This document shows positions 2,297 through 25,617 of a stretch of DNA of 25,617 nt, piece by piece. The DNA comes from a virus. Positions within the stretch are counted from its first letter, which is position 1. Each line of letters begins with the position of its first letter. The notes below the pieces were generated by a model. It did not search any database. It had not been told where the DNA came from and was given only the letters and a program-made list of their open reading frames with translations. The position numbers and the translations under genes were made by a program. The DNA lies in the IMG/VR virus record IMGVR_UViG_3300013114_000475, positions 1 through 25,617 of that record; one strand, 5' to 3'.

Positions 2297-2299
2297 TAA

Positions 2300-4237: not shown

Positions 4238-5057
4238 GCACAATAAAAAGAGAAATGTAGCTTTCATCTATGAAGCAATTACATTAACTATAACTGAATC
4301 GATAATTAACAAGGATGCCGATAAAAAACAAAGAGCAATGAAAATTATTAAGGAATTTTTTCAAGATACCGAAATTGCTAAAGAGCACGAAATTTATCGA
4401 TCTATATTGGAGTGCAGGGGGATAGAAAAGTCCGTTGCAGAAAAGATCATATTAGAGGCAAAACGAAGACATGACAATCTGGACAAAACAAAACTGTTTT
4501 CAGAACAAACAGCTCTGATAAAAATGATAAACAAAAACCTTGACACAGGAGTTTTTAGCACTTTTGTCCCCTCCTTTAAGTCTCTTGCTACAATTTCTCA
4601 AATGTTTAGTTCAGACGCATCCATTCGAGATCGAGTTCTGTTGGAGAATATAGTCATAGAAGAGATGATTTGCGAAGACAAGAGAGGGGAGAAGAGGTTG
4701 GAGCAAATTGACGAACTGGTTATGAATAAGTTTTTGGAAAAATTCAATGAAAAGTATTCCGGAGTTTTGTCCGAGAATCAGAAAACACTCTTGATGAAGT
4801 ATATCTCTTCTTTTTCTGACAATGGATTAGAGTTGAAGACATATTTGAATGAAGAGGTCGGGACGATCAAAAGAAAGATTGAAGGATTGATGTCCGACAA
4901 TGCCTTGTGCGATTCTCAAATGAAGACAGCTGCCGGCAAGGTTTTGTCGATCTTGGAATCACATGGAGAAAAACCAATAAACGAAGAAATGCTGAAGGAC
5001 GTTTTAAAATTTCAGGATTTGGTAAGGGAAATAGAGAATCATGACGATAGAAATTAA
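4224..5057 (+). CDS. Conserved-type helical phage protein of unknown function, next to portal
   Basis: The start is ATG 4224, with GGAG at 4214-4217 six bases upstream; the codon overlaps the end of the portal gene by 14 bases. An earlier TTG at 4212 in the same frame is less likely. The 277-residue product is almost entirely charged and helix-forming, with an N-terminal stretch NVAFIYEAITLTITESII, a middle region with AEKIILEAKRR and an acidic end. There is no signal peptide, membrane segment or recognisable catalytic motif. Its place between portal and protease, where T4 has small prohead core genes, makes a head-assembly role plausible, but no homology to gp67 or gp68 can be seen. I do not recognise the family. 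Confidence 0.8.
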   Translation: MMRNKHNKKRNVAFIYEAITLTITESIINKDADKKQRAMKIIKEFFQDTEIAKEHEIYRSILECRGIEKSVAEKIILEAKRRHDNLDKTKLFSEQTALIKMINKNLDTGVFSTFVPSFKSLATISQMFSSDASIRDRVLLENIVIEEMICEDKRGEKRLEQIDELVMNKFLEKFNEKYSGVLSENQKTLLMKYISSFSDNGLELKTYLNEEVGTIKRKIEGLMSDNALCDSQMKTAAGKVLSILESHGEKPINEEMLKDVLKFQDLVREIENHDDRN

Positions 5058-5583
5058 AATGGATCTTCCTGACAACAAGGGACAATCAGACCCTGTTGTC
5101 GAGGACATTAGTATAAAACTGAATGCGAGAAAGTCTATGGGCGGAGATGTCATGATCTTTGACCACATTGATATAGATATAGTTTATATGCCCGAAAAAA
5201 AGAAGATTGTTGCATTTCCGAAGGAAATGATGAGTGACATCGTTTATGGCGCACAAAATAGAATGTTTGATTTTCTTGTTAAGAAGGGGATGATACTCCC
5301 TGAAACAGTACAGGGTGGCAACGTCTATGGGGCCATTGAGGGAAAGTTTCCCGAATCCAAAACAGCAGATGCTGATAATTTGGTTCTCCTTACAATATCT
5401 AAATTTATGGAAGAGGAACGTCCATATTTCGCATACGACAAAGCTTACCGACAACAAGAGCAGGATAGGTTGCTCAATCCGGAAGAGGAAGACTCAACAG
5501 AGTTGGGTGAAGTCCCCCACAGCACGAAGAAGGGAAGCATCACCAGAGATACACACGGAAGGTATACACCAGGTTATAGATAG
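5041..5583 (+). CDS. Unassigned protein in the head-gene block
   Basis: ATG 5041 lies within the end of the preceding gene (17-base overlap), with AAGGGA at 5024-5029, indicating translational coupling. The 180-residue product has a mixed alpha/beta N-terminal part with alternating hydrophobic strands (HIDIDIVYMPEKKKIVAF), a central helical region (DIVYGAQNRMFDFLVKKG), and a polar C-terminus rich in Glu, Gln and Arg that ends DTHGRYTPGYR and is probably disordered. No catalytic signature is visible. Its position between portal and prohead protease suggests a structural or assembly factor. Function unknown. Confidence 0.8.
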   Translation: MTIEIKMDLPDNKGQSDPVVEDISIKLNARKSMGGDVMIFDHIDIDIVYMPEKKKIVAFPKEMMSDIVYGAQNRMFDFLVKKGMILPETVQGGNVYGAIEGKFPESKTADADNLVLLTISKFMEEERPYFAYDKAYRQQEQDRLLNPEEEDSTELGEVPHSTKKGSITRDTHGRYTPGYR

Positions 5584-5900
5584 TGTTTGAGGAGATGATT
5601 TATTTCATCCTTTGTTCTTACGGGATGACCAATATTTTAGTTTATGGTTCACTTTTCGATAAACTAAGGCCGAAGTACCATTTTTTTCGTTGTCCGATGT
5701 GTATTGGATTCTGGGTTGGGGTGCTTTTGTGGGCATTTTCACCCCACACTTCACTATTTATGTTTGATAGAGGTCCAACTACGCCACTCCTTTTGGGTTG
5801 CGTATCATCTGGGGTAAGTTACTTTCTTATCCAAATTGTGGGTGATGGAGGTATTAGGCATGAAAAAATGGATGCTACAACCAGTGAGAAGATGCCGTAA
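5583..5900 (+). CDS. Small membrane protein with a CPMCIGFW motif (DUF1360-like)
   Basis: This 105-residue protein probably starts at GTG 5583, sharing one base with the previous stop (TAGTG); AGG at 5571-5573 is a weak SD. ATG 5595 is an alternative but lies immediately after GAGGAG, too close for normal initiation. Hydrophobic segments at about 4-22, 42-58 and 68-88 predict two or three transmembrane helices. The motif CPMCIGFWVG at the start of the second helix resembles that of DUF1360-type membrane proteins. A membrane protein inside a head-assembly operon could anchor prohead assembly at the inner membrane, as T4 heads are membrane-initiated, but that is inference. Confidence 0.75.
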   Translation: MFEEMIYFILCSYGMTNILVYGSLFDKLRPKYHFFRCPMCIGFWVGVLLWAFSPHTSLFMFDRGPTTPLLLGCVSSGVSYFLIQIVGDGGIRHEKMDATTSEKMP

Positions 5901-5914
5901 AGGATGCTGACTCG

Positions 5915-5931
5915 AACGGGTAATGCCCGTT
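5915..5931 (+). other. Short hairpin between genes
   Basis: AACGGG and CCCGTT form a perfect 6-bp inverted repeat around a TAATG loop. It lies in the 58-base gap before the prohead protease gene and is not followed by a U-tract, so it does not look like a terminator. It could be an mRNA stability or processing element; chance is also possible. Confidence 0.35.
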
Positions 5932-5958
5932 GGAACAAACTGACAGAGAGGAAAAGAG

Positions 5959-6594
5959 ATGTCGAAGTATTTGCTAAGAGAATTTTTTGAGTTATGTGAG
6001 GGGGGAATCTGCGAAGACCTGCTTACCGAAGATGAGAAAAGAAGAATTAAGGAGAACAATGCCCTAATTCTTTCTGGAGTAATGCAAAGAGCAAATGCCA
6101 AGAATGGCAACGGCAGAGTCTACCCCAGACCAATACTGGAAAGAGAAGTAGAGACATACAGCAAACTCGTCAGAGAAAGAAGAGCAGTCGGTGAACTCGA
6201 TCACCCAGATGATTCAGTCATTAATTTAAAGAATGCTTCCCACATCGTCACTGACATTTGGTGGGATGGCAACGATGTGAAGGGAAAGGTAGAGATCCTC
6301 AATACCCCATCCGGTCAGATCTTGAAATCACTTGTTCAGTCAAACGTCAAGTTAGGAATTTCTTCAAGAGGTCTTGGTTCGGTCACGGAGTCTGAGGGAG
6401 GATCTACTATGGTGCAGGACGACTTCCAACTTATTTGCTTTGACTTTGTTTCTGAACCATCCACAACCGGTGCCTTCATGGGACTGCGAGAGAGCAAAAT
6501 TGTAAGTGGAGAGCCGAACATCTTCACGAAAGCAGATAAAATAAACAGAATTTTAAACGACATTATATGGAGGAATGATAATGAAAATAACTAA
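5959..6594 (+). CDS. Prohead core protease (T4 gp21-type, S80 family)
   Basis: The 211-residue length matches T4 gp21 (212). The family's serine protease matures the prohead by cleaving scaffold and capsid proteins before packaging. Visible family motifs are NGNGRVYPRPIL (50-60), the catalytic-histidine motif GELDHP with H82, the serine motif LGISSRG with S135/S136, and FDFVSEPS (161-168). ATG 5959 has GAGAGG about eight bases upstream. The gene overlaps the next one by 14 bases. The likely substrates, scaffold and major capsid protein, are expected nearby, yet no major capsid protein gene is found in the window. Confidence 0.94.
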   Translation: MSKYLLREFFELCEGGICEDLLTEDEKRRIKENNALILSGVMQRANAKNGNGRVYPRPILEREVETYSKLVRERRAVGELDHPDDSVINLKNASHIVTDIWWDGNDVKGKVEILNTPSGQILKSLVQSNVKLGISSRGLGSVTESEGGSTMVQDDFQLICFDFVSEPSTTGAFMGLRESKIVSGEPNIFTKADKINRILNDIIWRNDNENN

Positions 6595-7449: not shown

Positions 7450-7854
7450 ATGTCAAACTCATATAGTTACAAACCAGGCCCTATGCAAGCAGGTGCATAC
7501 CAGATTTCTGGCAGACCATACTTGGCTGGAGGAAGCATTGGAGCAGGGAACGAGGTCAAGATCGAGTTTCCCTTCGTAACCAAGGCAGTCACAATTTGCA
7601 ACACACACGCCTCCAATACTTTGCGAGTCCACTTCGACACGGACACCAACGGGAATGTTTTAACAAATAAGCATTTCATAGATATACCACCGGCCGGAGC
7701 AAGTGCAAACAATCCACTCAGCCGTCTCAAATTAGATGTTCGATGCTCAAGAGTATATCTATCATCTGCCTCTGCAACAACTTATCAACTGGCGGCTGAA
7801 TTGACCCTTATCCCCGATGTCCTTAATATGACTGGTTCGGGAATCAATGACTAA
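7450..7854 (+). CDS. Small beta-rich putative virion protein
   Basis: The 134-residue product starts at ATG 7450, with GGAGAG about seven bases upstream. The sequence is rich in Ser, Thr, Gly and alternating hydrophobics (VTICNTHASNTLRVHFDTD, YLSSASATTYQLAAELTLIP), consistent with a beta sandwich, and it has no signal peptide or catalytic motif. Its last base is the first base of the next gene's ATG (TAATG), so it is coupled to the giant fibre-like gene. A capsid decoration protein or fibre-base adaptor would fit this place, but neither can be shown. Family not recognised. Confidence 0.8.
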   Translation: MSNSYSYKPGPMQAGAYQISGRPYLAGGSIGAGNEVKIEFPFVTKAVTICNTHASNTLRVHFDTDTNGNVLTNKHFIDIPPAGASANNPLSRLKLDVRCSRVYLSSASATTYQLAAELTLIPDVLNMTGSGIND

Positions 7855-12231: not shown

Positions 12232-13245
12232 ATGGCAAACCAGGTAAGAATATTACAAGTCATGTCCGGCAGCAATGTCGTGCATCAATTGCTCGACTCA
12301 GGAGAGGTTGAGTTCAATAGGGCATCTAATGCAGGTGCCTTTAGTGTCAGTGGGTCTGTCTCCCTCGGGCCAGAGGATAATCACATCTCGTCTGGTTCAT
12401 TCATGGCCGGACTTTTCCGAGTTCCACACTATACATCAGCAGATGATTCTTCCCTGTTGACTACTCTTGCCGGTAGCGGATTAGCTGCCGGAGACTACAA
12501 CGGTCGAATGTTTTATATGAGTGGTTCTGGAATAACTTCAGGCGATGCAACAGCTGTCTCATACTTCTCTAGGGGTGACTGTCTCTACTTCTGTAGAAAC
12601 GGAATCTGGTTCGCAGATTTGCACAACGATCATGCCGAGGTCAGCAACGTCACCGATTTTTGGGTCACTAGGTTTTCCAGCACATTATCTTTCGAACATG
12701 GTCAGGGATGGCCCGGCACCGTATCGTCACCCGATGTTTCGAGCAGAACATTTTCAGCTTCGACTACCAATACGGAGACTTTCGAAGCATCCACAGGATT
12801 CAATAAGATCTTTTCTGATGTTGACTTGAGTTCATTTTCTAACAACTGGACAGTAAGCACCGAGTCATTGTCCTTCACGTCTGCGGAGGGATTCATAGGT
12901 GAGCCGGTTGACATATCATCCTTCACTTTCTCGGCAGAGGCAACAAATCAATTAACTTATGAAGCATCCACGGGATTCAATAAGATCTTTTCTGATATTG
13001 ACTTGAGTACATTTTCTAACGACTGGACAGTGAGCACCGAGTTGCTATCTTTCACGGCTGCGGAGGGATTCCCCGACGAGCCAGTTGATATTTCGTCATT
13101 CTCCTTTTCGGCAGAGACAACAGGTCAATTAACTTATGAAGCATCCACTGGTTTTAATAAGATCTTTTCTGATATTGACTTGAGTACATTCTCTAACGAC
13201 TGGACAGTGAGTACGCACACGGAAGATCCATATGATTGGGCTTAA
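12232..13245 (+). CDS. Family A appendage protein with three C-terminal 59-residue repeats
   Basis: This 337-residue protein starts at ATG 12232, with AAGGGGGA about nine bases upstream. Residues about 1-135 match the complete 136-residue protein at 22510: LQVMSGSNVVHQLLDSGEVEF against LQVVSGSSTVHSFMDDGEVVF, a shared TLAG, and a shared YFCRNGIW/YFCRDGQW near the end. After this core come about 2.8 copies of a 59-residue unit (FEASTGFNKIFSDVDLSSFS...WTVSTE) ending HTEDPYDWA. The shared core is probably the piece that attaches to the virion and the repeats a stalk or adhesive addition. That role is inferred; no ligand-binding family is recognised in the repeats. Confidence 0.85.
   Translation: MANQVRILQVMSGSNVVHQLLDSGEVEFNRASNAGAFSVSGSVSLGPEDNHISSGSFMAGLFRVPHYTSADDSSLLTTLAGSGLAAGDYNGRMFYMSGSGITSGDATAVSYFSRGDCLYFCRNGIWFADLHNDHAEVSNVTDFWVTRFSSTLSFEHGQGWPGTVSSPDVSSRTFSASTTNTETFEASTGFNKIFSDVDLSSFSNNWTVSTESLSFTSAEGFIGEPVDISSFTFSAEATNQLTYEASTGFNKIFSDIDLSTFSNDWTVSTELLSFTAAEGFPDEPVDISSFSFSAETTGQLTYEASTGFNKIFSDIDLSTFSNDWTVSTHTEDPYDWA
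12736..13224 (+). repeat. 177-bp tandem repeats in the family A gene
   Basis: The motif GAAGCATCCAC recurs at 12784, 12961 and 13138, exactly 177 bases (59 codons) apart. Units run 12736-12912, 12913-13089 and a partial third from 13090. Units 2 and 3 are nearly identical over long stretches (for example GATCTTTTCTGATATTGACT), suggesting recent duplication or ongoing homogenisation. The reading frame is preserved throughout. Confidence 0.92.
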
Positions 13246-13272: not shown

Positions 13273-16200
13273 GTGGCTAAAAGTGATGTTTTTATAGTGG
13301 GAACCCCACACGATCCTTTATCAATTTCGGGGTCTGACCCCTGGAATGCATCCGGTTCGGCAAGACTAGCATGTTGGTACAACATCCAGCCAGGACTGTA
13401 TGTAACGGGAACAGCTAATTCAGCAGGAGATGAGACTATTAATACAATTTTTGATTCTTCTCAATTTGACTGGAGCACCGGCACCAGAGCACTTAGGGCA
13501 ACAGACGACCTTATACCAGCTGTCAACTCTTCTATCGGTTCAAGTGGTATAGAATACACAATAGGTGGAAACATTGACGAAACAGAAAAATCTCTTTTTC
13601 TAAAAAACAATCCCGTAGCAGGAACAGATATGGATCCTGGATCGTGGCAGGTATCACCCTGGATATCAGGTTCAACTTCTGCAAGTCAACTGAAGGGCCC
13701 AACATCAATTTTCACGACAATGAAATACAATTCTTACGGAACCAACAACACAAGACCACTTACTGTCACCTATGGCACAGGAAACAACGGTGATGCCGAC
13801 GGAAACGACGGCAAGTATGGCACTTTTTCACTAGGTCTTTGGCACGACGCAGACGCATCGACAGACGTAAAGGGAACTTGGGTTGGATATCAAAAACAAG
13901 ACGGCACCGACGTATATAAGCTTGGTAATTTTGGTTCCTTTGATTCCGGATACCACGCACTTTCGTTGGTTTTCACCACCGCATCAGTATACGACCCTAG
14001 TTACCAGATCGACGTTTACCATAACGGGAACTGGAATTATGGTGAGGATTTCACCAACGTAACAGACGCAAATCGTCCTGGCCATTTTGGAGACAAGAAG
14101 ACGGTATCTTTCGGTGGATACAATCATGACTGGGGTGGCGGAAAAACAAATGCTTCGGGTCAAAATGAAATTGGTGAAATGTTTGCTTTCGATGATGCCT
14201 TATCTGACACCAGAAGACAACAAATGGAGAGGTATCTTTGTGATAAATACGACCTCACAATGGGACCAACTTATGCCATGTCTACATTTGACGGTGGAGG
14301 TACGGGAATCTCATTTCCAAACTCAGCTTTAAATACCCAACCGTCCTCTTCATTGAACAGTTATTCATCACAATATTCAAGAAAATTCTCACAAGCGCGA
14401 CCAACTCGATATGACCAAAAGATTCATCACGAAACAGCTGGTGGAGCTTTTTGGAAAAACACCGCGGCATCCGGTTTGTTGACAGAGGCAACGGGATCAG
14501 TTTCTCTTAGAGCTTGGGTTAGAGTCGAAGACACGGGAAGTAGTGCAAAGCATGGCGGAGGGCAAGTTGCTCTCGTTGCTCACGCAACATCACCGTGGGG
14601 ACACAAGATGGACAACATTAAGGGGTATGCCATGAAATTTGGCACACTCAAGGATGGTGTCGATGTGGATGACGACACAGTATCAGATACGCACCTCAAG
14701 TTTAGATTGTCCAGCAGAGATGCCAGAAGACAATATGACGGCAGCTCTTCTGGATTCGGAGATCAAGATCTCACAATTACAGATGTCAATTTGTCAGAGT
14801 CCAGTTGGTATCAGATGCGAATGGATGTCATAACTTCGGGATCATATGTGAAACGCGAAACCTTGCCAAATTATAGAGACGTAAGTGTGTTGGCCAACAA
14901 CACTACTGTATCTGCCTCAATTGGAACAGCAGCATACTGGAATACGGTCATGGGAACAGGATCGGCCGACTTTTACAACGGATACAGGTATATGAAAAAC
15001 ACATATGAGAGAAATGAAATGCTCTCTGGCAATATTACCCACTATGATTCTTCCGGCCGAATCCGACTAACCGCATCTTCTTATTGGAATGAAAATTTGA
15101 GAGCATCTTCCGGTGGAGCAAATGGGGAATTTACAGTTTCGACTTGGATCTACAATGGTGCTAGAAACACCGAAGATTGGCCTTCGATTTTCAAGATGGG
15201 AACAAACGATGCTCTGGCAATCGGATACTACAAGTCTTATGATAGAATCTGGTGCGGATATAAGTATCAAACTTGGAATAATAACCACATGTATTTTGAT
15301 AATTCCAAAATAGACTACAACACTTGGAATCATGTGCTAGTCACTGGAAAAGCTGCCCTTGATGGTGCTGACAACGTGGCACCAATCCTATACTTAAACG
15401 GAAAGAAATTGACGGCAGCTGATACGGCTCGAAACAGCAATACTCTTACGTGGTCGGGAACTCAAACCTACGGCGGCCGCGCGATTTTCGGAGGAAATAT
15501 TAGTGGGTCCGGCATCTGGGAAGACGGATGTTTTAGAAATGCAGCTATATGGAATAAGATCTTGGACGACAACGAAGCAGCCGCAGTTTATAATAGTGGC
15601 AGTATGACGATGCCAACGGTGCAGTCTGGCAGATGTATTTTTAAATCTGCCCTAACAGGTTCAACCTCTGCTGCAACCTATATGTACAATGATAGTGATA
15701 GTCAACTGAAATTAGGATCGGGAACAAACTATAATTGGTGGAACACCAACACCTCAACGAACAACGGGGATTTAACTTTCATGGGGTGGGTCCAAATGCA
15801 GAATTTTACCGAAGATTGGAACTGCCTTTTCGGAGGAGGACAAGACTCAGGTGGAACTAGATTGAGGCTCTACTACAACAAAAGCTCAGAATATTTTCAC
15901 TTCAATATCGGGTATGGCGGTTCCCAGAAGAATTTTGATACCGCAGGAGATTCAGTTCCACGAGAGGATTTGCAATCTTGGTGCCACGTTGCACTGGTTT
16001 TGAGAAAAGCAGCACAGTGGGACTCCGGTGACGATTATCCCGGAGATCAGGAAATAAAACTCTATATCAACGGGAGACACATCCCTTGGGATTCAAAACC
16101 TTCTGCTCCTGGTAGCAACCTAAGTTACACGAACACTAACTTCAATTGGGAGTTGGGTATCGATACAGACAACAATCACAACGCACGAAGCCAATCATTC

Positions 16201-18384
16201 TTGCATTGGGGCATATGGAATGAGATGTTGACCTCCGCGCAAATACAGCAAGCATACAATAGGGGATATATCAGAAACGCATTCCAGGTACATAGCAGCA
16301 CTCCAAAGGGTTATTGGGCATTGGATGTGCCCAATACTGGAAGTTCTTATACCAACTTTGACGGTTCCGGAGATTGTCTAAAAGGAAGAGACATGCTTCA
16401 CAATGGCAGGTCCAGACCGTGGAACAACAAACTTCTAAAACCTGGCCAAGCAATTAACCCTGGCCAATTCTCTTTTTCTGGTTGGGTTTATTCCAATTGG
16501 TCTGGATTGGGACAATCAGCACCTCGCATTTTCGATATAGGAAATCAGGGGTGTATGTTATATTGGAGTGTCACTAATGAGAAACTGGAATTTCAAGTTG
16601 CCTACACACCAGATGGTTCTAATACAAATTTCGCAAGATGGACATGGAATTGGGCACCGACCAACAACTCATGGCATCACATAGCTATTTCGTTTAATTA
16701 CGGAGGAAAATACTCCGAAGTAACGGCACCAATACTCTATGTTGATGGATCTTCAGAGGGCAGCGGAACCATCGTCGGTGGCGGCACCGATGCTGGAAAT
16801 AACGATACACCGAATCCGATTAGAAACAAGGGACTCCGCATTGGGAACAACGATGACCTCAATGTAAGCTTCACAGGTCGATTCAAGGAATTTGCATTTT
16901 GGAATAAGGTTATTACCTCCGGAAATGTTACGACATTGTACAATGGCGGTACTCCCGCAGGCATCAACGAGGTAAAGGGCATAGACTACGAAACACTGAT
17001 TGCGTATTATAGATTAACTTCCAACTTTGATGATTATTCCAAGTATGGAGAATCCTTTCACGACTGGACACTAACCCCATATGGAGATGCAAAAATTGCA
17101 GGAATGACATACCCAGACTCAGCAACAAATAATGATATTGTCTGCGAAGAAATTGTTAATTCAACAAGGGTATTAGGAAATTGCCTAGATGAGTCCGGAA
17201 ACCAGGCCCATGCTCTACCTAGAGGGGGTGCTATAACGAACCAAAAGTCCCACGGCAACACCACTTGGTATTCTTCTCCTGTCACTTTCGACGCTAAGAG
17301 AGGTAGCTTTACTATTTCTGCATGGGTCATGCCAACGCAGTTTGGTGATTCCGGTGGAAGTAGCAGCACATATGTTGCAAGCACCATCGTACAAATGTCT
17401 AGCAAGGATTGGTATCACAATGGTGGTAACTACTACCCCACTTCCCATTTTGGAATACGACATGACGGATACCTCGCTTACACTTCTGGAAATTATGAGA
17501 AGGATGAGGGGACTGGAGAGGATGACATCTATGCCATGCGATCAAATTCGCAGGTATCAACTGGTGAGTGGCAACATGTCGCAGTGACTGTAACTACGGG
17601 CCTCGTCGGAAATGCCAACAAGGACAATGCTTTTTGTGAATTTTTCATAAACGGTGAAAGGGTAGGGTCAACGTCACTTAACGGTGTGAACAACGGATCT
17701 ACTGACGGATGGAGTTTCTTTGCAGATGACCCAACTGGAAAGTCTTTCCCGATGATCGGAAACGGATGTAGCTATGGAAAGACATCCGACTGGACAGCTG
17801 CCCATGTGGAGAATTTCTATGGTAAAATTGGACAAGTATCTCTATGGTCAGGCCGATTGCCGGAAGGAAAGATCAGAACCTTATATAACACCGGGTCTAT
17901 GGGCAACGATCACCTTCTCGTATCAGGTTCTGATGGACGCAACACTATGGAGAAGTGCCTTGGATTCTGGAAAATGGGTGAACCCCAATTGTCCGGAGTC
18001 AATATTACCGATGAGATGGGATACAACAATGCGGTGACTTCAAGTGACGGATGGTCTATCGAGGAAAACAGAAACGGTGTTTTTGGATACTACACCACCG
18101 TTGAAACCTCTGATGGCAATGATACCCTAAAGGCATATTATAGACTGAGAGAAGACCAGAGTTGGACATTGCTGCACGAAGAGACAATTGATGCGTTAGA
18201 TAACAACTTTAGGTTCAAAAAGAGTGACACAAAAGCATCCGGCACGTTTAAGGTGCCGGATTACAATGCTAGATATAATGGATACTATATTGCATTAAGT
18301 TCTAGTACCGGAGATAGACTCTCGACTAAGTATTATATAGATAATTTGGAAATTCACACAGATCTTAACGATGATGACAAGTGA
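13273..18384 (+). CDS. Giant multi-LamG (concanavalin A-like) adhesin, family B
   Basis: This 1703-residue protein starts at GTG 13273, with GGGAG at 13259-13263; the MAKSD start matches that of the paralogue at 20454. The N-terminus has VGTPHDPLSISGSDPWN. A first ConA-like domain ends at about 307-330 with DDALSDTRRQQMERYL, and a second begins near 405 (LRAWVRVEDT, MDNIKGYAMKFGT). Four more LamG-like domains follow at about 617-776, 832-999, 1064-1230 and 1344-1546. Each opens with a strand such as EFTVSTW, LTFMGW, FSFSGW or SFTISAW, has a central W-HVA/HIA-type strand, and closes with an AIWNKIL-type motif and a YN-G ending. The last 100 residues (from about 1604) match the ends of both paralogues (GYYIALSSSTG). 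Likely a glycan-binding virion appendage; no signal peptide or enzyme motif is seen. Confidence 0.88.
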   Translation: MAKSDVFIVGTPHDPLSISGSDPWNASGSARLACWYNIQPGLYVTGTANSAGDETINTIFDSSQFDWSTGTRALRATDDLIPAVNSSIGSSGIEYTIGGNIDETEKSLFLKNNPVAGTDMDPGSWQVSPWISGSTSASQLKGPTSIFTTMKYNSYGTNNTRPLTVTYGTGNNGDADGNDGKYGTFSLGLWHDADASTDVKGTWVGYQKQDGTDVYKLGNFGSFDSGYHALSLVFTTASVYDPSYQIDVYHNGNWNYGEDFTNVTDANRPGHFGDKKTVSFGGYNHDWGGGKTNASGQNEIGEMFAFDDALSDTRRQQMERYLCDKYDLTMGPTYAMSTFDGGGTGISFPNSALNTQPSSSLNSYSSQYSRKFSQARPTRYDQKIHHETAGGAFWKNTAASGLLTEATGSVSLRAWVRVEDTGSSAKHGGGQVALVAHATSPWGHKMDNIKGYAMKFGTLKDGVDVDDDTVSDTHLKFRLSSRDARRQYDGSSSGFGDQDLTITDVNLSESSWYQMRMDVITSGSYVKRETLPNYRDVSVLANNTTVSASIGTAAYWNTVMGTGSADFYNGYRYMKNTYERNEMLSGNITHYDSSGRIRLTASSYWNENLRASSGGANGEFTVSTWIYNGARNTEDWPSIFKMGTNDALAIGYYKSYDRIWCGYKYQTWNNNHMYFDNSKIDYNTWNHVLVTGKAALDGADNVAPILYLNGKKLTAADTARNSNTLTWSGTQTYGGRAIFGGNISGSGIWEDGCFRNAAIWNKILDDNEAAAVYNSGSMTMPTVQSGRCIFKSALTGSTSAATYMYNDSDSQLKLGSGTNYNWWNTNTSTNNGDLTFMGWVQMQNFTEDWNCLFGGGQDSGGTRLRLYYNKSSEYFHFNIGYGGSQKNFDTAGDSVPREDLQSWCHVALVLRKAAQWDSGDDYPGDQEIKLYINGRHIPWDSKPSAPGSNLSYTNTNFNWELGIDTDNNHNARSQSFLHWGIWNEMLTSAQIQQAYNRGYIRNAFQVHSSTPKGYWALDVPNTGSSYTNFDGSGDCLKGRDMLHNGRSRPWNNKLLKPGQAINPGQFSFSGWVYSNWSGLGQSAPRIFDIGNQGCMLYWSVTNEKLEFQVAYTPDGSNTNFARWTWNWAPTNNSWHHIAISFNYGGKYSEVTAPILYVDGSSEGSGTIVGGGTDAGNNDTPNPIRNKGLRIGNNDDLNVSFTGRFKEFAFWNKVITSGNVTTLYNGGTPAGINEVKGIDYETLIAYYRLTSNFDDYSKYGESFHDWTLTPYGDAKIAGMTYPDSATNNDIVCEEIVNSTRVLGNCLDESGNQAHALPRGGAITNQKSHGNTTWYSSPVTFDAKRGSFTISAWVMPTQFGDSGGSSSTYVASTIVQMSSKDWYHNGGNYYPTSHFGIRHDGYLAYTSGNYEKDEGTGEDDIYAMRSNSQVSTGEWQHVAVTVTTGLVGNANKDNAFCEFFINGERVGSTSLNGVNNGSTDGWSFFADDPTGKSFPMIGNGCSYGKTSDWTAAHVENFYGKIGQVSLWSGRLPEGKIRTLYNTGSMGNDHLLVSGSDGRNTMEKCLGFWKMGEPQLSGVNITDEMGYNNAVTSSDGWSIEENRNGVFGYYTTVETSDGNDTLKAYYRLREDQSWTLLHEETIDALDNNFRFKKSDTKASGTFKVPDYNARYNGYYIALSSSTGDRLSTKYYIDNLEIHTDLNDDDK

Positions 18385-18402
18385 TAAACGGAGGAAAATT
18401 AA

Positions 18403-20424
18403 ATGACTGCTTCTAAATTCGTATTCGTGGGTCAACCCCACGACCCCAGATCCATTTCAGGATCTGACCCCTACAATGCATTCAACAGAACCCAAGACGG
18501 TGCTGGCAATGCAAGACTTGCAGCATGGTACAACTGTGATGTTGGAAACTTTGTAACAGGAACTCTTGTTGACAACAACAACGGTTCCCTGTGGATGCTC
18601 AGGGACATTTCGGGAAATTCTAAAGATCCCGGTTTTTCCTCCATTCAGAGGAACCTCTACAGGACTAACGATTGCCGACCAATCCTCACCGGAAGCGGAC
18701 TTAACGTGTATAATGATACCAACCACATCATCACTGGAGATTCTCAAAATTGCATGGTGGGGTCCAACGACCTCGATGGTACGTACAGAGGGGTTCAAAT
18801 GATTAACTCGACAATTAATGGAAGTTCGACGCAAAACAGTGGAGACACCAACATACAAACCTGGGCATCAGGATCTATGGCCGCAGACACGAATAAAACT
18901 CTTGAAGGTGGGTACTCCCTCTTCACTACGATGAGGTTGAGAAATGTTGGACCAGGTGCTCATCACGAAGCGGATTACACCTTTCCCCTCTCTGTCACAT
19001 ACCCGACATCGGGCAACAATGGGGTTGATTACGGTGAATCCGGACCATTCTCAATGGGATTGGTCCACGGGCCAGAGGACTGGTACGGTATAGATGGAGA
19101 CAAAACACTGGCTCCACTTGAGGTAGCAAAAAGATCCATGACTGGGTACGCTAAGGACAACGACAGCATTTGGCGGTTTGGTACTGAGAGGTATGACTAT
19201 TATTGGCCAGACACTTTCCATGTTCTATCAATGACATATGACAACCAAAATGACACCAAAGAAGGTGATGCGGATCAGACGGAGAGAGACAACTGGTCGC
19301 TTAATGCATACAGGAACAGTCTTGGCATCACGTCCATCACAGGTTCTGACGGTGAAAAACAGTCGGTACAATCTTTTTGGGCAACGAGTGACGAAGACAC
19401 TGGTCGTCAAAGTCCAAGGACATACAGACCAAACATCATGATTGGTGGCACTGCTAACCAAGGTGGGGGAAGACTTGATACCTCCAATATGCAAGATTAT
19501 TATAATGCGGTCCATGAGTTTTTTGTATTTGACGATGCACTTTCGGATATTAGACGACAACAGATGGAGAGATATTTGTGCGACAGACTAGATTTGGAGC
19601 AATCCGGTGCATCCCACTTATCTCAGTTTACTGGTGGACCAAAGGGAAAAGCATATTTACACACAAGACTGTCAAACGCGTTGGCAGGCAACGGAGAATA
19701 TTGCAGAGCATACGAGCAGATGCTTACATCATCTGGATCTCCGACGATTCACTACGAAACTGCCGCAGGCGCGTTTTTGAGATCTTCTGCCGATAGTGGT
19801 GCTTTCTACAGAACACCGAGTTCAAAAGCAATTAGACTTGAGGCATGGGTTAGGTGTACGGGATTGACTGACAACCGTCACGATGGTAGTCACTTTGCCC
19901 TTGTTGCGAAAGCATCTTCACCCTTTGGACACAAGGTGGATAATATCAAAGGATATGCCCTAAAGTTTGGAACCTTCCTTAACGGTACAAAGGAAAATAA
20001 TACGTTAAAGCTTCGGTTAAGCTTGCGTCACGGAGATCAGTGGACAGACGGAACAACAATAGAGAGTTGCGGAGATATAGAGGTATCTCACGGATCGGTG
20101 TCTCTCGCTGCCGATGCCTGGTTTAAAATAAGATTGACAGTAACTCCCTCCGGACTAGCATATGATCAGATCACTTGCCACGCAAGTACTGACGGAACAA
20201 CCTGGCACGCTTTGGCAGACGGGAGCAGTAACACGTCTTGGAATGTTCTAAGAGAAGATGCAAATTACAGATTCTGGTGTAATGATCCCGATTATGACGC
20301 AAGGGTTAGATCCCAAAACGGGATACATAACGGATACTGGGTTGCGATGAAGTCCACCAATGGTGAGAGAGTCGCAACCAAATATTTTGTTGATGGATTT
20401 GCATGTATGGTAGACACAATATAG
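18403..20424 (+). CDS. Two-domain ConA/LamG-like appendage protein, family B (short form)
   Basis: This 673-residue paralogue starts at ATG 18403 with GGAGG at 18390-18394. The N-terminal module is FVGQPHDPRSISGSDPYN followed by NARLAAWYN. A ConA-like domain runs from about 205 and ends with FDDALSDIRRQQMERYL near 375-392, the usual closing helix of such domains in bacterial surface proteins. A second beta domain (about 465-673) has LEAWVRC, ALVAKASSPFGH, DNIKGYALKFGTF and a final NGYWVAMKSTNG. The layout is the same as the next gene and as both ends of the 1703-residue protein. Predicted to be a structural glycan-binding protein of the virion; the ligand is unknown. Confidence 0.86.
   Translation: MTASKFVFVGQPHDPRSISGSDPYNAFNRTQDGAGNARLAAWYNCDVGNFVTGTLVDNNNGSLWMLRDISGNSKDPGFSSIQRNLYRTNDCRPILTGSGLNVYNDTNHIITGDSQNCMVGSNDLDGTYRGVQMINSTINGSSTQNSGDTNIQTWASGSMAADTNKTLEGGYSLFTTMRLRNVGPGAHHEADYTFPLSVTYPTSGNNGVDYGESGPFSMGLVHGPEDWYGIDGDKTLAPLEVAKRSMTGYAKDNDSIWRFGTERYDYYWPDTFHVLSMTYDNQNDTKEGDADQTERDNWSLNAYRNSLGITSITGSDGEKQSVQSFWATSDEDTGRQSPRTYRPNIMIGGTANQGGGRLDTSNMQDYYNAVHEFFVFDDALSDIRRQQMERYLCDRLDLEQSGASHLSQFTGGPKGKAYLHTRLSNALAGNGEYCRAYEQMLTSSGSPTIHYETAAGAFLRSSADSGAFYRTPSSKAIRLEAWVRCTGLTDNRHDGSHFALVAKASSPFGHKVDNIKGYALKFGTFLNGTKENNTLKLRLSLRHGDQWTDGTTIESCGDIEVSHGSVSLAADAWFKIRLTVTPSGLAYDQITCHASTDGTTWHALADGSSNTSWNVLREDANYRFWCNDPDYDARVRSQNGIHNGYWVAMKSTNGERVATKYFVDGFACMVDTI
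18424..18478 (+). repeat. 55-bp near-identical 5' segment shared with the gene at 20454 (copy 1)
   Basis: This stretch encodes FVGQPHDPRSISGSDPYN and differs from 20475-20529 at only two of 55 bases, although the flanking coding DNA diverges strongly. The 1703-residue gene has a more diverged version near 13300. The pattern indicates recent exchange or strong constraint on the shared N-terminal attachment module. Confidence 0.9.
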
Positions 20425-20426
20425 AA

Positions 20427-20434
20427 ATTAAATA
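20427..20434 (+). promoter_or_regulatory. Weak late-promoter-like box ATTAAATA
   Basis: ATTAAATA matches TATAAATA at six of eight positions and lies in the 29-base gap between two family B genes, just before AGGAG and the ATG at 20454. It could start a secondary late transcript. The gap is AT-rich and very short, so chance is quite likely. Confidence 0.2.
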
Positions 20435-20453
20435 ATAAAGGAGATTATTAAAA

Positions 20454-22490
20454 ATGGCAAAATCAGATTTTACTTTCGTGGGTCAACCTCACGACCCCAG
20501 ATCCATTTCGGGATCTGACCCCTACAATGGCATTACTGTTTCGGGACAAGATAAGGCCCTTGATATTTCACTTTCTGGCAATGCCCGGTTGGCATTTTGG
20601 TATAAGTTCGATCCGGGATGCGTTTCAACTCGTGGATACTATTGGGAAACACATGAGAGAGTAGTAACAGGAAGTTTCGAATTCCACCGAAGTGGTGCGA
20701 TTGAGGTAATATGGGATGTTTCAGGAAATTCCAAATCATTCACATACACCGGCAAAGCTTGGGATCAGGGAAGTGACCGTATCTCAACTCGACACCTCTA
20801 TCCACTGGCAAATGAATACCAAAGGATTGGGAGGCTTTCTAGCTCATTTGATGCTGGCATTCCTAATTCAAACCATCGAATCCACGGAGACGACCAGAAT
20901 TTCATGATGGGAGACTCCAGGTATCATGGAGATAGAACTATAGCATACTATTCCGGATTGGGACCAACCAGCGGTGACAGGTACGGTGAAAACATGGATG
21001 GATATTCAACTTGGGTTTCTGGGAATATTACTCAAGATGGTGCCGATTCCACCACCACCAAGTGTTTCCCCGGCGGCCGTTCGACGTTTATGACAATGAC
21101 CTACAAAGCAGATGAAGGTGGACAAGGAGCACACCATCAGGATGATAGAACCTACCCCCTTCTCTGCACCTACCCCGCAACGTACCCTCACCAACTGTAC
21201 TCCAGCGAACACGACACATTTGCCGTCGGACTGGTTCATGACGGAGGATCGGATTACCGGACGACAACATTCTTCTATAGAGAGAAGGACAATAGCGATA
21301 CGGTGGAAACAAGGGGAACCACTACAGACTTGGCAACAGGTTGGCACGTTTTATCAATGACATACGACAACCAGACTAACCCTGCCGAACAAGTTACTGC
21401 AAGCATGTATCTTGCTGGAGAGCAGCAAGCACAAGTTAAGAAGAGTGCTACTGACAACACTGCCCCGAAGAATGATAGCTCTTACATGGGGGTTAAGATT
21501 GGTGCATCTCCCTCCGCAGGTGGTGGTGATATTGATTCAAACGATATGACCGACGACTACATCAATGGAGTTCATGAATATTTTGGTTTTGATGATTCTC
21601 TTTCACACGTCAGACGACAGCAAATGGAAATGTATTTGGCAGATCGACTCGATATGGTTATGTCCTCTTCGACTTACCTGCCGCAATTCGACGGTGGAAA
21701 AATCGGACTCGCATATGCTCACAGTTTGTTATCAAATCCTCTATCCGGAGAGAGCCAAGGCACCGGGTGCCGAAGGTACAAAATGGAAAACACAGGATCT
21801 GGAGTTGTAGGGCCCGTAAAACTTAACGAAGTTGGTGGTGGTGCATTTGTCAAGTCTTCTGTAGATGGGGGTGCATATTATAAGATGAAGTCAACAGAGG
21901 CAGTGCAGATGACTATGTGGGTTCGTGCAGAAGAAACCGACGATGCAAGACATGCAGGAAGTCAGGTTGCCCTAGTTGCTAAGGCAACTTCACCCTTTGG
22001 GCATCAAATGGACAACATTAAGGGATATGCCCTAAAGTTTGGTACGTTCAAAGACGGCAATGACATGGGAGATACACCAGCAATACGTTTGAGCATGAGA
22101 AACGCAGATGAGTGGTTGGATGGAACAACTCTCGAAAGTTCTGGAGACAAAGACTTGTCTTGGTCAGGTGTAACTATTGCGAGAGACAAATGGTATCAGT
22201 TGAAGTTGGAAGTAATTCCGGCTGGTCATAATTACGACAAGATTAGATGCTATGCTCGTGAACCCGGAGGATCTTATGCTGAATTAGGTTCTTCACCGTA
22301 TTACGTCTATAACGATGCAGCAAACTATAGGCACTGGTGGGACGATAATCTCGATGAAACACAGAGAGTCAGGGTTCCCAACGGCACACACAATGGGTAT
22401 TGGGTTGCACTGAGTTCGAGTACGGGACAGAGACTAGACACATCCTATTATGTTGATGAGTTTACTATCAAAACAGATACAGTTCTTTAA
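20454..22490 (+). CDS. Two-domain ConA/LamG-like appendage protein, family B (short form, second copy)
   Basis: This 678-residue paralogue starts at ATG 20454 with AGGAG at 20439-20443. It has the family B N-terminus FVGQPHDPRSISGSDPYN, then a longer insert before NARLAFWYKFDPG, a WDVSGNSK motif also seen in diverged form in the 673-residue copy, and a first ConA-like domain closing with DDSLSHVRRQQMEMYL at about 380-395. The second domain carries TMWVRAEE, ALVAKATSPFGH, DNIKGYALKFGTF and ends NGYWVALSSSTG. It is the closer match to the end of the 1703-residue protein. Predicted to be a virion surface glycan-binding protein. Confidence 0.86.
   Translation: MAKSDFTFVGQPHDPRSISGSDPYNGITVSGQDKALDISLSGNARLAFWYKFDPGCVSTRGYYWETHERVVTGSFEFHRSGAIEVIWDVSGNSKSFTYTGKAWDQGSDRISTRHLYPLANEYQRIGRLSSSFDAGIPNSNHRIHGDDQNFMMGDSRYHGDRTIAYYSGLGPTSGDRYGENMDGYSTWVSGNITQDGADSTTTKCFPGGRSTFMTMTYKADEGGQGAHHQDDRTYPLLCTYPATYPHQLYSSEHDTFAVGLVHDGGSDYRTTTFFYREKDNSDTVETRGTTTDLATGWHVLSMTYDNQTNPAEQVTASMYLAGEQQAQVKKSATDNTAPKNDSSYMGVKIGASPSAGGGDIDSNDMTDDYINGVHEYFGFDDSLSHVRRQQMEMYLADRLDMVMSSSTYLPQFDGGKIGLAYAHSLLSNPLSGESQGTGCRRYKMENTGSGVVGPVKLNEVGGGAFVKSSVDGGAYYKMKSTEAVQMTMWVRAEETDDARHAGSQVALVAKATSPFGHQMDNIKGYALKFGTFKDGNDMGDTPAIRLSMRNADEWLDGTTLESSGDKDLSWSGVTIARDKWYQLKLEVIPAGHNYDKIRCYAREPGGSYAELGSSPYYVYNDAANYRHWWDDNLDETQRVRVPNGTHNGYWVALSSSTGQRLDTSYYVDEFTIKTDTVL
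20475..20529 (+). repeat. 55-bp near-identical 5' segment shared with the gene at 18403 (copy 2)
   Basis: Partner of the segment at 18424-18478, with two mismatches in 55 bases. Both copies sit in the first 75 bases or so of their genes, in the same reading frame. Confidence 0.9.
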
Positions 22491-22509: not shown

Positions 22510-22920
22510 ATGAGAAGGGGTTTACAAGTAGTTTCGGGAAGCAGTACCGTCCATAGTTTTATGGACGATGGAGAAGTTGTCTTCGGTAATACTGTTAATG
22601 GATTCCAATTGGGGATTTCAGGCAGCGCCGAGCTAGGACGAAGAACTAACAATGTTGCAGACGTTGTTAAGATAAACGGTTCAATGCAAATACCAAGATA
22701 CAGTGGCACTACTGAAAGTGACGTGGTTATCTTGAATACTTTAGCAGGAAACCCGACACAATACAATGGATATATGATTTATTTGAATTCCGCAGGTCTT
22801 ACTGCGGGTGCAACAGTTGGTTCGACAACAGTTACGGCAGATTGTGGCACTTATTTCGGCAGAGGGCACCGATGGTACTTCTGCCGCGACGGACAGTGGA
22901 ATGCGGATAAATTTGTATAA
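22510..22920 (+). CDS. Minimal family A appendage protein
   Basis: This 136-residue protein starts at ATG 22510 with AGGAG at 22496-22500. It is homologous over its whole length to the first 135 residues or so of the protein at 12232: LQVVSGSSTVHSFMDDGEVVF, ISGSAELG, NTLAGNPTQYNGYMIYL and a closing RGHRWYFCRDGQWNAD. It therefore represents the basic A unit without repeats. The sequence is beta-rich with two cysteines. Standing between the family B trio and the next giant repeat protein, it could be an adaptor, cap or base piece of the same appendage; no outside family is recognised. Confidence 0.82.
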   Translation: MRRGLQVVSGSSTVHSFMDDGEVVFGNTVNGFQLGISGSAELGRRTNNVADVVKINGSMQIPRYSGTTESDVVILNTLAGNPTQYNGYMIYLNSAGLTAGATVGSTTVTADCGTYFGRGHRWYFCRDGQWNADKFV

Positions 22921-22987: not shown

Positions 22988-25617
22988 ATGGTACAACCTA
23001 GAGGTTTAGCGGTAATTACAGGATCGAATACGACGGTATTCGAAGTCCTTGACAATCAAACCGCAAAGTTAAAATTAAAGAATGTTGCAATAGGCCATGT
23101 CATAACGGCATCTGCGACTGATGGAACATTGGGGACGATTGGTTTAACCGCGTCTGCAATGGCTGGTAAGTTGGGGTATGACGATACCAATACTGCTTGG
23201 GGTGGATCTACAGATACAGTCCAAAAGGCAATTGAGAAGTTGGAAGATACAACGATTTCGACAATCGCTGCCGCATCCGACACGGCAATTTCAACACCAT
23301 CTTCTGGTCAAGTTTTGATCTATGATGGTTCTAACAGTTGGGATAACAAATCTTTGTCTGGTCAGGTCACAATAAATTCTAATGGTGTAACACAGATTGC
23401 TACATCAGCAGCAGGTGCCGGACTTGCAGGTGGTGGTGGCACCGCACTTAGTTTGGATATAAATGAATTGGCAGCTGCCGCCGTAGATGTTGCAAATGAT
23501 AGTATCGCAATTGTTGATGCTAATGATAGCAACGCACCGAAGAAGGAAGCAATTGCTGATGTTGTAACTGCAATGGCAGGTACTGGTCTTGGTGCTGCTT
23601 CTGGTGTCTTGTCTGTTGACTTGAACGAAGCATCTGCCGCGACTGTAGATGTTGCTGCCGATAGCATCGCGATCATTGATGCAAACGATAGCAATGTCAC
23701 GAAGAAGGAAGCAATTGCTGACTTGATGACTGCCGCTGCCGGAAACGGTCTTGCTGCTTCATCCGGTGTTCTCGCAGTCGGTGTTGATGGTTCATCCATC
23801 GAAATAAACAGTGATGCACTTAGAGTCAAAGCAAGTGGTGTTACCAATGCTATGTTGGCAAATGCTTCTGTGACATTCGCAGCAGGAACGGGTTTGAGCG
23901 GCGGTGGAGCAACTGCACTTGGTGCAAGTTCTACAATAAACTTAGACTTGAATAGTTTAAATGCCGCATCGGTATCTCTTGCTAATGATAGCATTGCAAT
24001 CATTGACGCAGATGACAGCAATAATCCAAAGAAAGAGTCACTTTCGGACGTATTCACTGCTGCCGCAGGCACCGGTCTTGGTGTCGCATCTGGTGTTTTA
24101 TCTGTTGATTTAAGCGAGGCAGCTGCTGCTACCATCAATGTTGCTAACGACAGTTTTGCAATCATTGACGCAGACGACAGTAATGCAACAAAGAAAGAAA
24201 GCATTGCTGACTTCGTTGCTGCAATCGCAGGTTCAAACCTCACTGCAACAAACGGTGTCCTAGCAGGTTCTTCTGCGACACTAACAGTCGGTGCAGATAG
24301 TGGATCTGACGATACTGTAACTGTTGGTACTGACACTCTTGAGTTCGCAGGTACTGCGAATGAAATTACGACTACTGTCAGTGATAATACGATTACATTC
24401 GCATTGCCAGATAACGTGACAATTGGTAACAATTTAACTGTCACTGGTGATTTAACCGTAGAGGGAACAACAACCACGTTTAACAGCACAGCTGTGGAGA
24501 TTCAGGACAAAGTATTCTTACTTGCAACAGGATCTTCCAACGCAGAAATTGCTGCTGCCGGTGGTGCTGGTCTTATGTTCTGTTCTGATGACACCGACGG
24601 TGGTGAGGTTTCTGCTTCATTTTTGTACGATGGTGTTGACAGTTTCGATGTCACTGATCACATGAATTTGGCATCAGGAAATGCTTTTAAGATCAACAAC
24701 ACTACCGTCATTGACGCAAGTGGTGCTGAGAAGGTTACTGCTACTGTTGCAGGTGCAGGTCTTGCTCACAGTTCCGGAGTCTTGTCTGTTGGGGTTGATG
24801 ATAGTTCCATTCAGATAACCGGTGATACACTCAATGTTAAGGCACTCGGTGTTACCAATGCAATGTTGGCAGGTTCTATTGCGAACAGTAAGTTGACAAA
24901 CGATTCAGTCACAGTCACAGCGGGCAATGGTTTGTCTGGTGGTGGTGAGGTTGATCTCGGTGCTGCAACGTCCTTGGCACTCGACTTGAATGAACTGAGT
25001 GCAGCTACTGTTGCTGTCGGTGCAGATAGCATCGCAATTATTGATGCAGACGATAACTCCTCTAAAAAGGAGAGTATCACTGACCTCATTGCCGCAACCG
25101 CAGGAACTGGTCTTGCTGCTGCTTCTGGTGTCTTGTCTGTTGATTTGAATGAAGTAGGTGCTGCTGCCATCAATGTTGCTGCTGATAGTCTCGTCTTTAT
25201 GGACGCAGATGCTAGTGATGCAACAAAGAAAGAAAGCATTGCTGACCTGATAACTGCTACCGCGGGTGACGGATTAAAACCAACATCTGGTGTCTTGTCT
25301 CTTGACTTGAATGAACTGACTGCCGCAGCTGTTGCAGTTGGTGCAGATAGCATTGCAATCATCGATGCAGATGACAATTCTACCAAGAAAGAGGCAATTG
25401 CTGATGTCATCTCTGCCACTGCGGGAACTGGTCTTACTGCTACTTCTGGTGTTTTATCTGTTGATTTAAACCAAGCAGCTGCTGCAACAATCAGTGTTGC
25501 TAACGATAGTTTTGCAATCATCGATGCTGACGGCAGTAACGCAACAAAGAAGGAAAGCATTGCTGACTTCGTTGCTGCCATCGCAGGTGCAAACCTCACT
25601 GCAACAAACGGTGTCTT
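22988..25617 (+). CDS. Giant repeat fibre protein, 3' end outside window
   Basis: The frame is open from ATG 22988 (GGAGGG upstream at 22975-22980) to the window end, 876 codons with no stop. The N-terminus RGLAVITGSNTTVFEVLD echoes the family A opening. A helical stretch (TVQKAIEKLEDTTIST) follows, then beta-repeats: a 54-residue unit of the form AGTGLxAxSGVLSVDLNE...DSIAIIDADDSNxTKKExIAD, with KKE at codons 185, 239, 348, 402, 693, 747, 800 and 854. Between the clusters lie a GxLTVTGDLTVEGTTTTF segment (about codons 475-500) and GVTNAMLA modules. Sequence of this type is common in phage tail fibres. A fibre role is likely; the receptor-binding tip is not in the window. Confidence 0.85.
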   Translation, partial: MVQPRGLAVITGSNTTVFEVLDNQTAKLKLKNVAIGHVITASATDGTLGTIGLTASAMAGKLGYDDTNTAWGGSTDTVQKAIEKLEDTTISTIAAASDTAISTPSSGQVLIYDGSNSWDNKSLSGQVTINSNGVTQIATSAAGAGLAGGGGTALSLDINELAAAAVDVANDSIAIVDANDSNAPKKEAIADVVTAMAGTGLGAASGVLSVDLNEASAATVDVAADSIAIIDANDSNVTKKEAIADLMTAAAGNGLAASSGVLAVGVDGSSIEINSDALRVKASGVTNAMLANASVTFAAGTGLSGGGATALGASSTINLDLNSLNAASVSLANDSIAIIDADDSNNPKKESLSDVFTAAAGTGLGVASGVLSVDLSEAAAATINVANDSFAIIDADDSNATKKESIADFVAAIAGSNLTATNGVLAGSSATLTVGADSGSDDTVTVGTDTLEFAGTANEITTTVSDNTITFALPDNVTIGNNLTVTGDLTVEGTTTTFNSTAVEIQDKVFLLATGSSNAEIAAAGGAGLMFCSDDTDGGEVSASFLYDGVDSFDVTDHMNLASGNAFKINNTTVIDASGAEKVTATVAGAGLAHSSGVLSVGVDDSSIQITGDTLNVKALGVTNAMLAGSIANSKLTNDSVTVTAGNGLSGGGEVDLGAATSLALDLNELSAATVAVGADSIAIIDADDNSSKKESITDLIAATAGTGLAAASGVLSVDLNEVGAAAINVAADSLVFMDADASDATKKESIADLITATAGDGLKPTSGVLSLDLNELTAAAVAVGADSIAIIDADDNSTKKEAIADVISATAGTGLTATSGVLSVDLNQAAAATISVANDSFAIIDADGSNATKKESIADFVAAIAGANLTATNGV
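23440..25617 (+). repeat. 162-bp (54-residue) repeats and a 1356-bp higher-order repeat
   Basis: Eight clear 54-codon units are phased by their KKE codons. A longer copy is also visible: about 165 bases from 24089 match the stretch from 25445 to the window end at roughly 90 percent, including GCAACAAAGAA(A/G)GAAAGCAT and GCAAACCTCACTGCAACAAA-like DNA. The two copies are offset by 1356 bases (452 codons). The gene thus seems to have grown both by single units and by block duplication. Confidence 0.88.

Follow-up and report, generated by a model that had tools for sequence, protein, structure and literature searches.

A predicted four-LamG array within the lectin-like scaffold of one of three paralogous proteins of a T4-like phage

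How can one member of a phage protein family carry about a thousand residues more than its sisters and still share both of its ends with them? This question is raised by three neighbouring genes in the window analysed here (the whole stretch of 25,617 nucleotides). The window, a viral contig of 25.6 kb, has T4-like genes for terminase, portal and prohead protease at 701-6594 and, from about 7.8 kb to its end, a run of fibre-like genes. The relatives of the phage suggest a marine origin. The first-pass annotation had described a three-gene family with a shared N-terminal module and a two-domain layout, in which one member has received an insertion of about 1000 residues that splits the second conserved domain.

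Three paralogs and the interruption of domain 2

The open reading frames are as originally described. All genes and features of the trio lie on the plus strand. The long form (13273..18384; 1703 aa, GTG start) consists of the scaffold and an insert with four LamG domains and has orthologs in two further contigs, designated L007 and L008. It is followed by two uninterrupted short paralogs, s1 (18403..20424; 673 aa) and s2 (20454..22490; 678 aa). The N-terminal motif PHDPxSISGSDP is common to all paralogs, and the trio proteins can be aligned across their first ~520 residues with 35-45% identity. The 1703-, 673- and 678-aa proteins are thus paralogs with two ConA-like domains. In an unrooted gene tree, the long forms constitute a single clade (support 100/100), long and short forms being sister groups. 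None of the eight scaffold sequences gave a significant match of the scaffold domains to a Pfam family.

The fold of the scaffold was addressed with an AlphaFold2 (AF2) model of s2, which was computed from twelve aligned rows. Domain 2 (residues 405-678 of s2) was well modelled as a jelly roll, with blocks mostly at pLDDT 70-91. Domain 1 was weaker and of medium confidence, and the stretch 52-235 was unmodelled. A Foldseek search of the PDB with this model yielded the laminin LG pair, ERGIC-53-type and legume lectins, and PL14 and other ConA-fold alginate lyases. Thus, a ConA-like jelly-roll fold can be predicted with confidence for domain 2 and a ConA-like fold with medium confidence for domain 1. 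In the long form, domain 1 (residues 1-335; 13273..14277) was delimited by alignment, and its ConA-like assignment, which is only partly confident here, derives from a Foldseek search with the model of the paralog P0003. Of the two scaffold halves, domain 2 shows the higher conservation, and domain 1, which could be modelled only in part, is the larger.

For locating the interruption, the long forms were searched, with every filter disabled, with a profile HMM that combined six short forms, two per contig (window, L007, L008). The long form of the window was matched in two pieces, of which residues 1-524 correspond to profile positions 1-573 (322 bits) and residues 1617-1697 to positions 576-658 (43 bits, E 4.6e-15). 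No credible match of this profile was found in residues 525-1616. Since the two pieces are contiguous in the profile (573/576) yet separated by about 1,090 residues of the protein, an insertion of this length appears to have taken place at one point of domain 2. As judged by the profile, domain 2 of the long form has a single break behind residue 524 and continues from residue 1617. Its N-terminal part comprises residues 336-524 (14278..14844; profile up to position 573), the insert without a short-form profile match residues 525-1616 (14845..18120; ~1,092 residues), and the C-terminal part residues 1617-1703 (18121..18381), the latter being assigned by profile positions 576-658, alignment and a shuffle control. 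For this control, a profile of the last 100 short-form residues was used, which scored 48-55 bits at the C-termini of all three long forms; the top score among 3,000 shuffled long forms was 12 bits. The first dozen columns of the same profile map to residues 512-524, directly before the insert. The junction recurs in the orthologs: the short-form profile matches the L008 long form at 1-526 and 1633-1713, and in the L007 long form, whose 5' end is cut, two matches meet at profile positions 568-573.

These results uphold the insertion of about 1000 residues into the second domain as well as the earlier statement that the start and the last 100 residues of the long form match the short forms. The bounds of the insert were shifted from 515-1600 to about 525-1616. 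According to the profile, domain 2 is not complete before residue 600, and the C-terminus is related to that of the short forms. An assembly chimera was considered as the source of the long form and ruled out by the presence of the same architecture in independent contigs.

On the model of s2, the insertion point falls on the turn between strands 581-590 and 594-602, which form a beta-hairpin. By AF2 secondary structure and alignment, s2 residues 591-593 (22224..22232) constitute the turn where the long form bears the insert; the uninterrupted counterpart in s1 is residues 584-586 by alignment (20152..20160).

The LamG repeats of the insert

The Pfam family Laminin_G_3 (PF13385) matched four stretches of the 1703-aa protein, with an E value of 3.7e-30 for the whole protein. 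Each repeat was also tested singly against Pfam with an E cut-off of 0.01. R2 (residues 800-1002; 15670..16278; 5.3e-8), R3 (residues 1023-1232; 16339..16968; 1.4e-13), which is the best-modelled repeat, and R4 (residues 1318-1547; 17224..17913; 5.3e-10) were significant on their own. R1 (residues 586-780; 15028..15612) was delimited by a repeat HMM and alignment; the copy of the window alone does not reach the cut-off, and its L008 counterpart does so with 6e-8. The annotation of four LamG-like domains therefore holds, for R1 by way of the L008 copy.

A repeat tree revealed that R2, R3 and R4 each cluster by position across the phages with 97-99% support; the placement of R1 of L008 is not firm. 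The repeats are, as judged from this tree, orthologous by position, firmly so for R2-R4. This grouping, together with the presence of four repeats in all three phages, indicates that the array predates the divergence of these phages. The initial reading of the insert as an expandable lectin array grafted into a preserved scaffold can thus be retained for the preserved two-domain scaffold and the single insertion site. The term "expandable" has to be dropped because four domains are present in all three phages, and neither gain nor loss was seen.

The complete interrupted domain with its insert amounts to at least 1,359 aa, of which the AF2 model covered residues 380-1579, i.e. the insert and half of domain 2. 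The model, which was based on three sequences, was poor (mean pLDDT 43). In this low-confidence model, in which repeat detail is weak, each repeat appears to close with the same strand-helix signature. The low confidence of the half-domain was not taken as a sign of incompleteness because the alignment was shallower than for s2. Foldseek searches with the low-confidence insert model gave neurexin LNS1-6 as the top PDB match (2.9e-15), followed by laminin LG. Both are tandem arrays of the same fold that serve adhesion; they are eukaryotic and arranged end to end, and their likeness to the insert is by fold only. Viral fold matches (BFVD) were LamG/ConA proteins of uncultured Caudovirales and of Synechococcus phage S-SKS1. 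Clostridial neurotoxin entries were also among the matches of the insert model; they share only the common LamG-type jelly roll and were given no weight.

Occurrence, divergence and genomic setting of the trio

For finding relatives, 2.9 million viral contigs of IMG/VR were scanned with the short form, the scaffold profiles, the long-form profile, the N-terminal motif and the R2-R3 array. The trio was recovered from two contigs only (L007 and L008), and a third was represented by a fragment (L013, L100), so that the search for the same trio in related phage genomes had a positive outcome; the sample comprises three to four phages. The L008 long form comprises 1730 aa and the L007 long form, which is cut at its 5' end, at least 1463 aa, and the insertion site and the four domains are unchanged, which rules out an assembly error and a recent graft. 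In the IMG/VR scans, the array was seen on no other scaffold, and sequence relatives of the trio were found neither among the INPHARED phages nor in GTDB genome contigs nor in the PDB. The loci around the relatives of the protease and of gp22 contained no further scaffold homologs, only unrelated single-LamG genes.

Between the window and the L008 contig (G002), the portal, the protease and the small head genes are 79-95% identical. For the trio, the identity is 33-37%, and for its 337-aa neighbour 32%. Within the long form, the N-terminal part of domain 2 is 53% identical and the repeats are 28-43% identical. This fast divergence would fit proteins in contact with a partner that changes, for which the host surface is the simplest candidate.

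The trio resides between the prohead (gp21-like) protease on one side and the scaffold/capsid (gp22/gp23-like) genes on the other. In L007 and L008, the order is long form, short form, short form, a 136-aa protein, a giant repetitive fibre, a gp22-like and a gp23-like gene. In isolated relatives such as Flavobacterium phage immuto and Microcystis phage Mel-JY01, the protease, a few small genes, the scaffold and the capsid gene are closely packed. In metagenomic relatives, this slot measures about 1 to 7 kb and often contains other fibre-like genes; here it spans at least 18 kb. Thus, the protease-scaffold slot takes up appendage genes in this clade; its position alone does not discriminate between head, neck and tail for the products encoded there.

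Two neighbours on the plus strand accompany the trio. The 136-aa protein (22510..22920) is encoded directly 3' of the trio in all three phages, and the 337-aa protein (12232..13245), which is related to the 136-aa protein by phmmer, is located upstream of the long form also in L008. The 337-aa protein is probably part of the same appendage module as the trio. At its C-terminal end, it has about three near-identical repeats of ~45-60 residues each (FSAS/FSAE...EASTGFNKIFSD...NDWTVST). Moreover, a protein family of 136 to 2243 aa was observed, which is characterised by an N-terminal "VxSGSxxVHxFxDDGxVxFGN"-like region and/or a C-terminal "YFCRDGxW"-like knob motif. Its members (12232-13245, 22510-22920 and 22988-25617 in the window; L007:8540-15745; L094:7941-9380) are spread across the appendage module and also occur beside a neck gene. 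Many related viral contigs encode homologues of a 134-aa protein (7450-7854) at the corresponding position (38 ORFs in the loci compared); isolated phages gave no match to this protein, and Pfam assigned it to no family. Its identity to the L008 contig is 58%, compared with 79-95% for the genes upstream, and it marks the upstream border of the fast-diverging module.

A giant neck-type protein is encoded in several contigs, namely L094:1602-7931 and L096:2526-9962 (2110 and 2479 aa) as well as L106, L107, L108 and L109; in close relatives, it comprises 615-2280 aa. In the L094 and L096 proteins, a ~160-aa T4-like neck module is present twice in tandem and joined to a repetitive fibre; this module stands alone in L028, L036, L066 and L110. 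The giant protein is 78% identical between the L007 and L008 contigs, which is far above the conservation of the trio.

Known systems and rival explanations

A likeness in design is provided by the evolved Dit proteins of siphophages of Gram-positive bacteria, in which carbohydrate-binding modules in loops of the galectin-like Dit domain bind host cells (PMC7291167, PMC6669499). In both systems, a domain of carbohydrate-binding type is located in a loop of a beta-sandwich scaffold, in the trio between the positions equivalent to s2 strands 581-590 and 594-602. However, an evolved Dit has one or two modules, often of the BppA type, in a tail-tip hub protein, whereas here four tandem LamG domains occupy one ConA-like hairpin turn in a T4-like phage, with two uninterrupted paralogs beside. 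The trio gave no Pfam or PHROG match to Dit, and its genes belong to the head cluster rather than to a tail-tip region with tape measure and Tal. The likeness is therefore one of design and not of membership.

The Hoc capsid fibres of T4-like phages also carry a variable string of adhesive domains on a conserved anchor, and some phages have two paralogs of different length (PMC10385173). The Ig-like domains of Hoc are attached at one end of the anchor, whereas the LamG domains of the trio lie inside the scaffold. LamG3/ConA-fold domains have furthermore been described in jumbo-phage fibres (PMC7824862). The LamG proteins of jumbo phages, uncultured Caudovirales and S-SKS1 belong to the same fold family, are virion-associated by annotation and sometimes have several such domains per protein, but no nested arrangement has been described for them and they do not match the scaffold of the trio by sequence. 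Flavobacterium phage vB_FspM_immuto_2-6A, an isolate whose portal and capsid proteins are related, has tandem LamG units in the form of two neighbouring "structural protein" genes with one LamG domain each (Pfam E 1.6e-18 and 4.9e-18). These are separate genes of 220 and 233 aa beside a tail-fibre-like gene and not a nested array. Adjacent single-LamG pairs were seen at L092:27817-29182 (Flavobacterium phage immuto) and at L061:16863-18349 (viral contig); here, the duplicated LamG units of related phages are separate genes.

The literature search yielded no identical nested lectin array in a phage adhesin, evolved Dit and Hoc being the precedents. Accordingly, the view of the first-pass annotation that no characterised appendage has this architecture stands at the sequence level in the collections searched; the principle is known (PMC7291167, PMC10385173, PMC7824862). 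New is the combination of a four-LamG array in one hairpin of a lectin scaffold, a T4-like phage and two uninterrupted sisters.

We consider it probable that the trio comprises paralogous virion-surface glycan-binding adhesins of a T4-like phage, with four LamG domains inserted at the domain 2 hairpin of the long form. Each paralog would present the common N-terminal motif followed by two ConA-like lectin domains. Four consecutive LamG domains would have entered one beta-hairpin turn of domain 2 in the ancestor of the long forms. As the points at which such a turn begins and ends lie side by side, the sandwich may still close from the N-terminal strands of residues 336-524 and the C-terminal strands of residues 1617-1697. 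The array would loop out as a projecting side arm of a putative virion protein, probably bind glycans on the surface or envelope of the host, and thereby supplement the contacts of the two short paralogs. Fold and fast divergence suggest a role in host range or adhesion. The fibre-like gene product P0004 adjoins the trio, and such neighbours, together with the fast divergence, hint only indirectly at possible tail fibre or receptor-binding proteins.

The proteins could also be Hoc-like capsid fibres with a capsid-binding scaffold that exposes the lectin string on the head. This is a possibility of limited likelihood, to which the location within the head gene cluster, before the gp22/gp23-like genes, and the different-length paralogs on one Hoc anchor in phages Muldoon and PG7 (PMC10385173) lend weight. 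However, Pfam scans gave no Ig-like domain, no capsid-binding domain was identified, and varied fibre-like genes occupy the same slot in relatives, so that position alone does not mean head. It appears rather doubtful that the trio forms a Hoc-like head-decoration family with a four-lectin glycan-binding side arm on the hairpin, such that a plain and an arrayed adhesin reside on one virion. Enzymatic activity is unlikely: the scaffold domains or the array would be ConA-fold polysaccharide lyases or glycanases degrading host capsule or algal polysaccharide and not pure binders. ConA-like folds do occur in enzymes, and the s2 model matched PL14 and other alginate lyases besides lectins, but lectin and LG structures rank equal or higher, and Pfam assigns LamG_3 and no hydrolase or lyase family to any of the three proteins.

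Two further explanations concern the history of the long form. It may be ancestral, and the short forms may have lost the array precisely, either before the duplication or following it; the unrooted gene tree with its sister groups would allow this order. Nevertheless, an interrupted domain presupposes an uninterrupted one, and a clean excision that gives back a three-residue turn is less plausible than one insertion, which makes this scenario improbable. Very improbable is an illusory split, in which domain 2 would be complete on its own and the last 90 residues would have been gained separately as a further copy at the C-terminus. The closure of the split domain is a prediction from the profiles, but the profile pieces join without overlap or gap, no second match to the missing strands exists within the insert, and the junction is shared by all three phages.

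Regarding the trio as adhesins with an inserted array, the finding extends the loop insertion of carbohydrate-binding modules from siphophage tail-tip proteins to a T4-like phage, to another fold and to a four-domain array. The uninterrupted sister proteins alongside constitute a built-in control, and the long form offers a natural template for studying how a beta-hairpin turn bears about 1,090 extra residues. Moreover, the trio points to an appendage module exceeding 10 kb within a head gene cluster whose counterparts in isolated relatives are compact.
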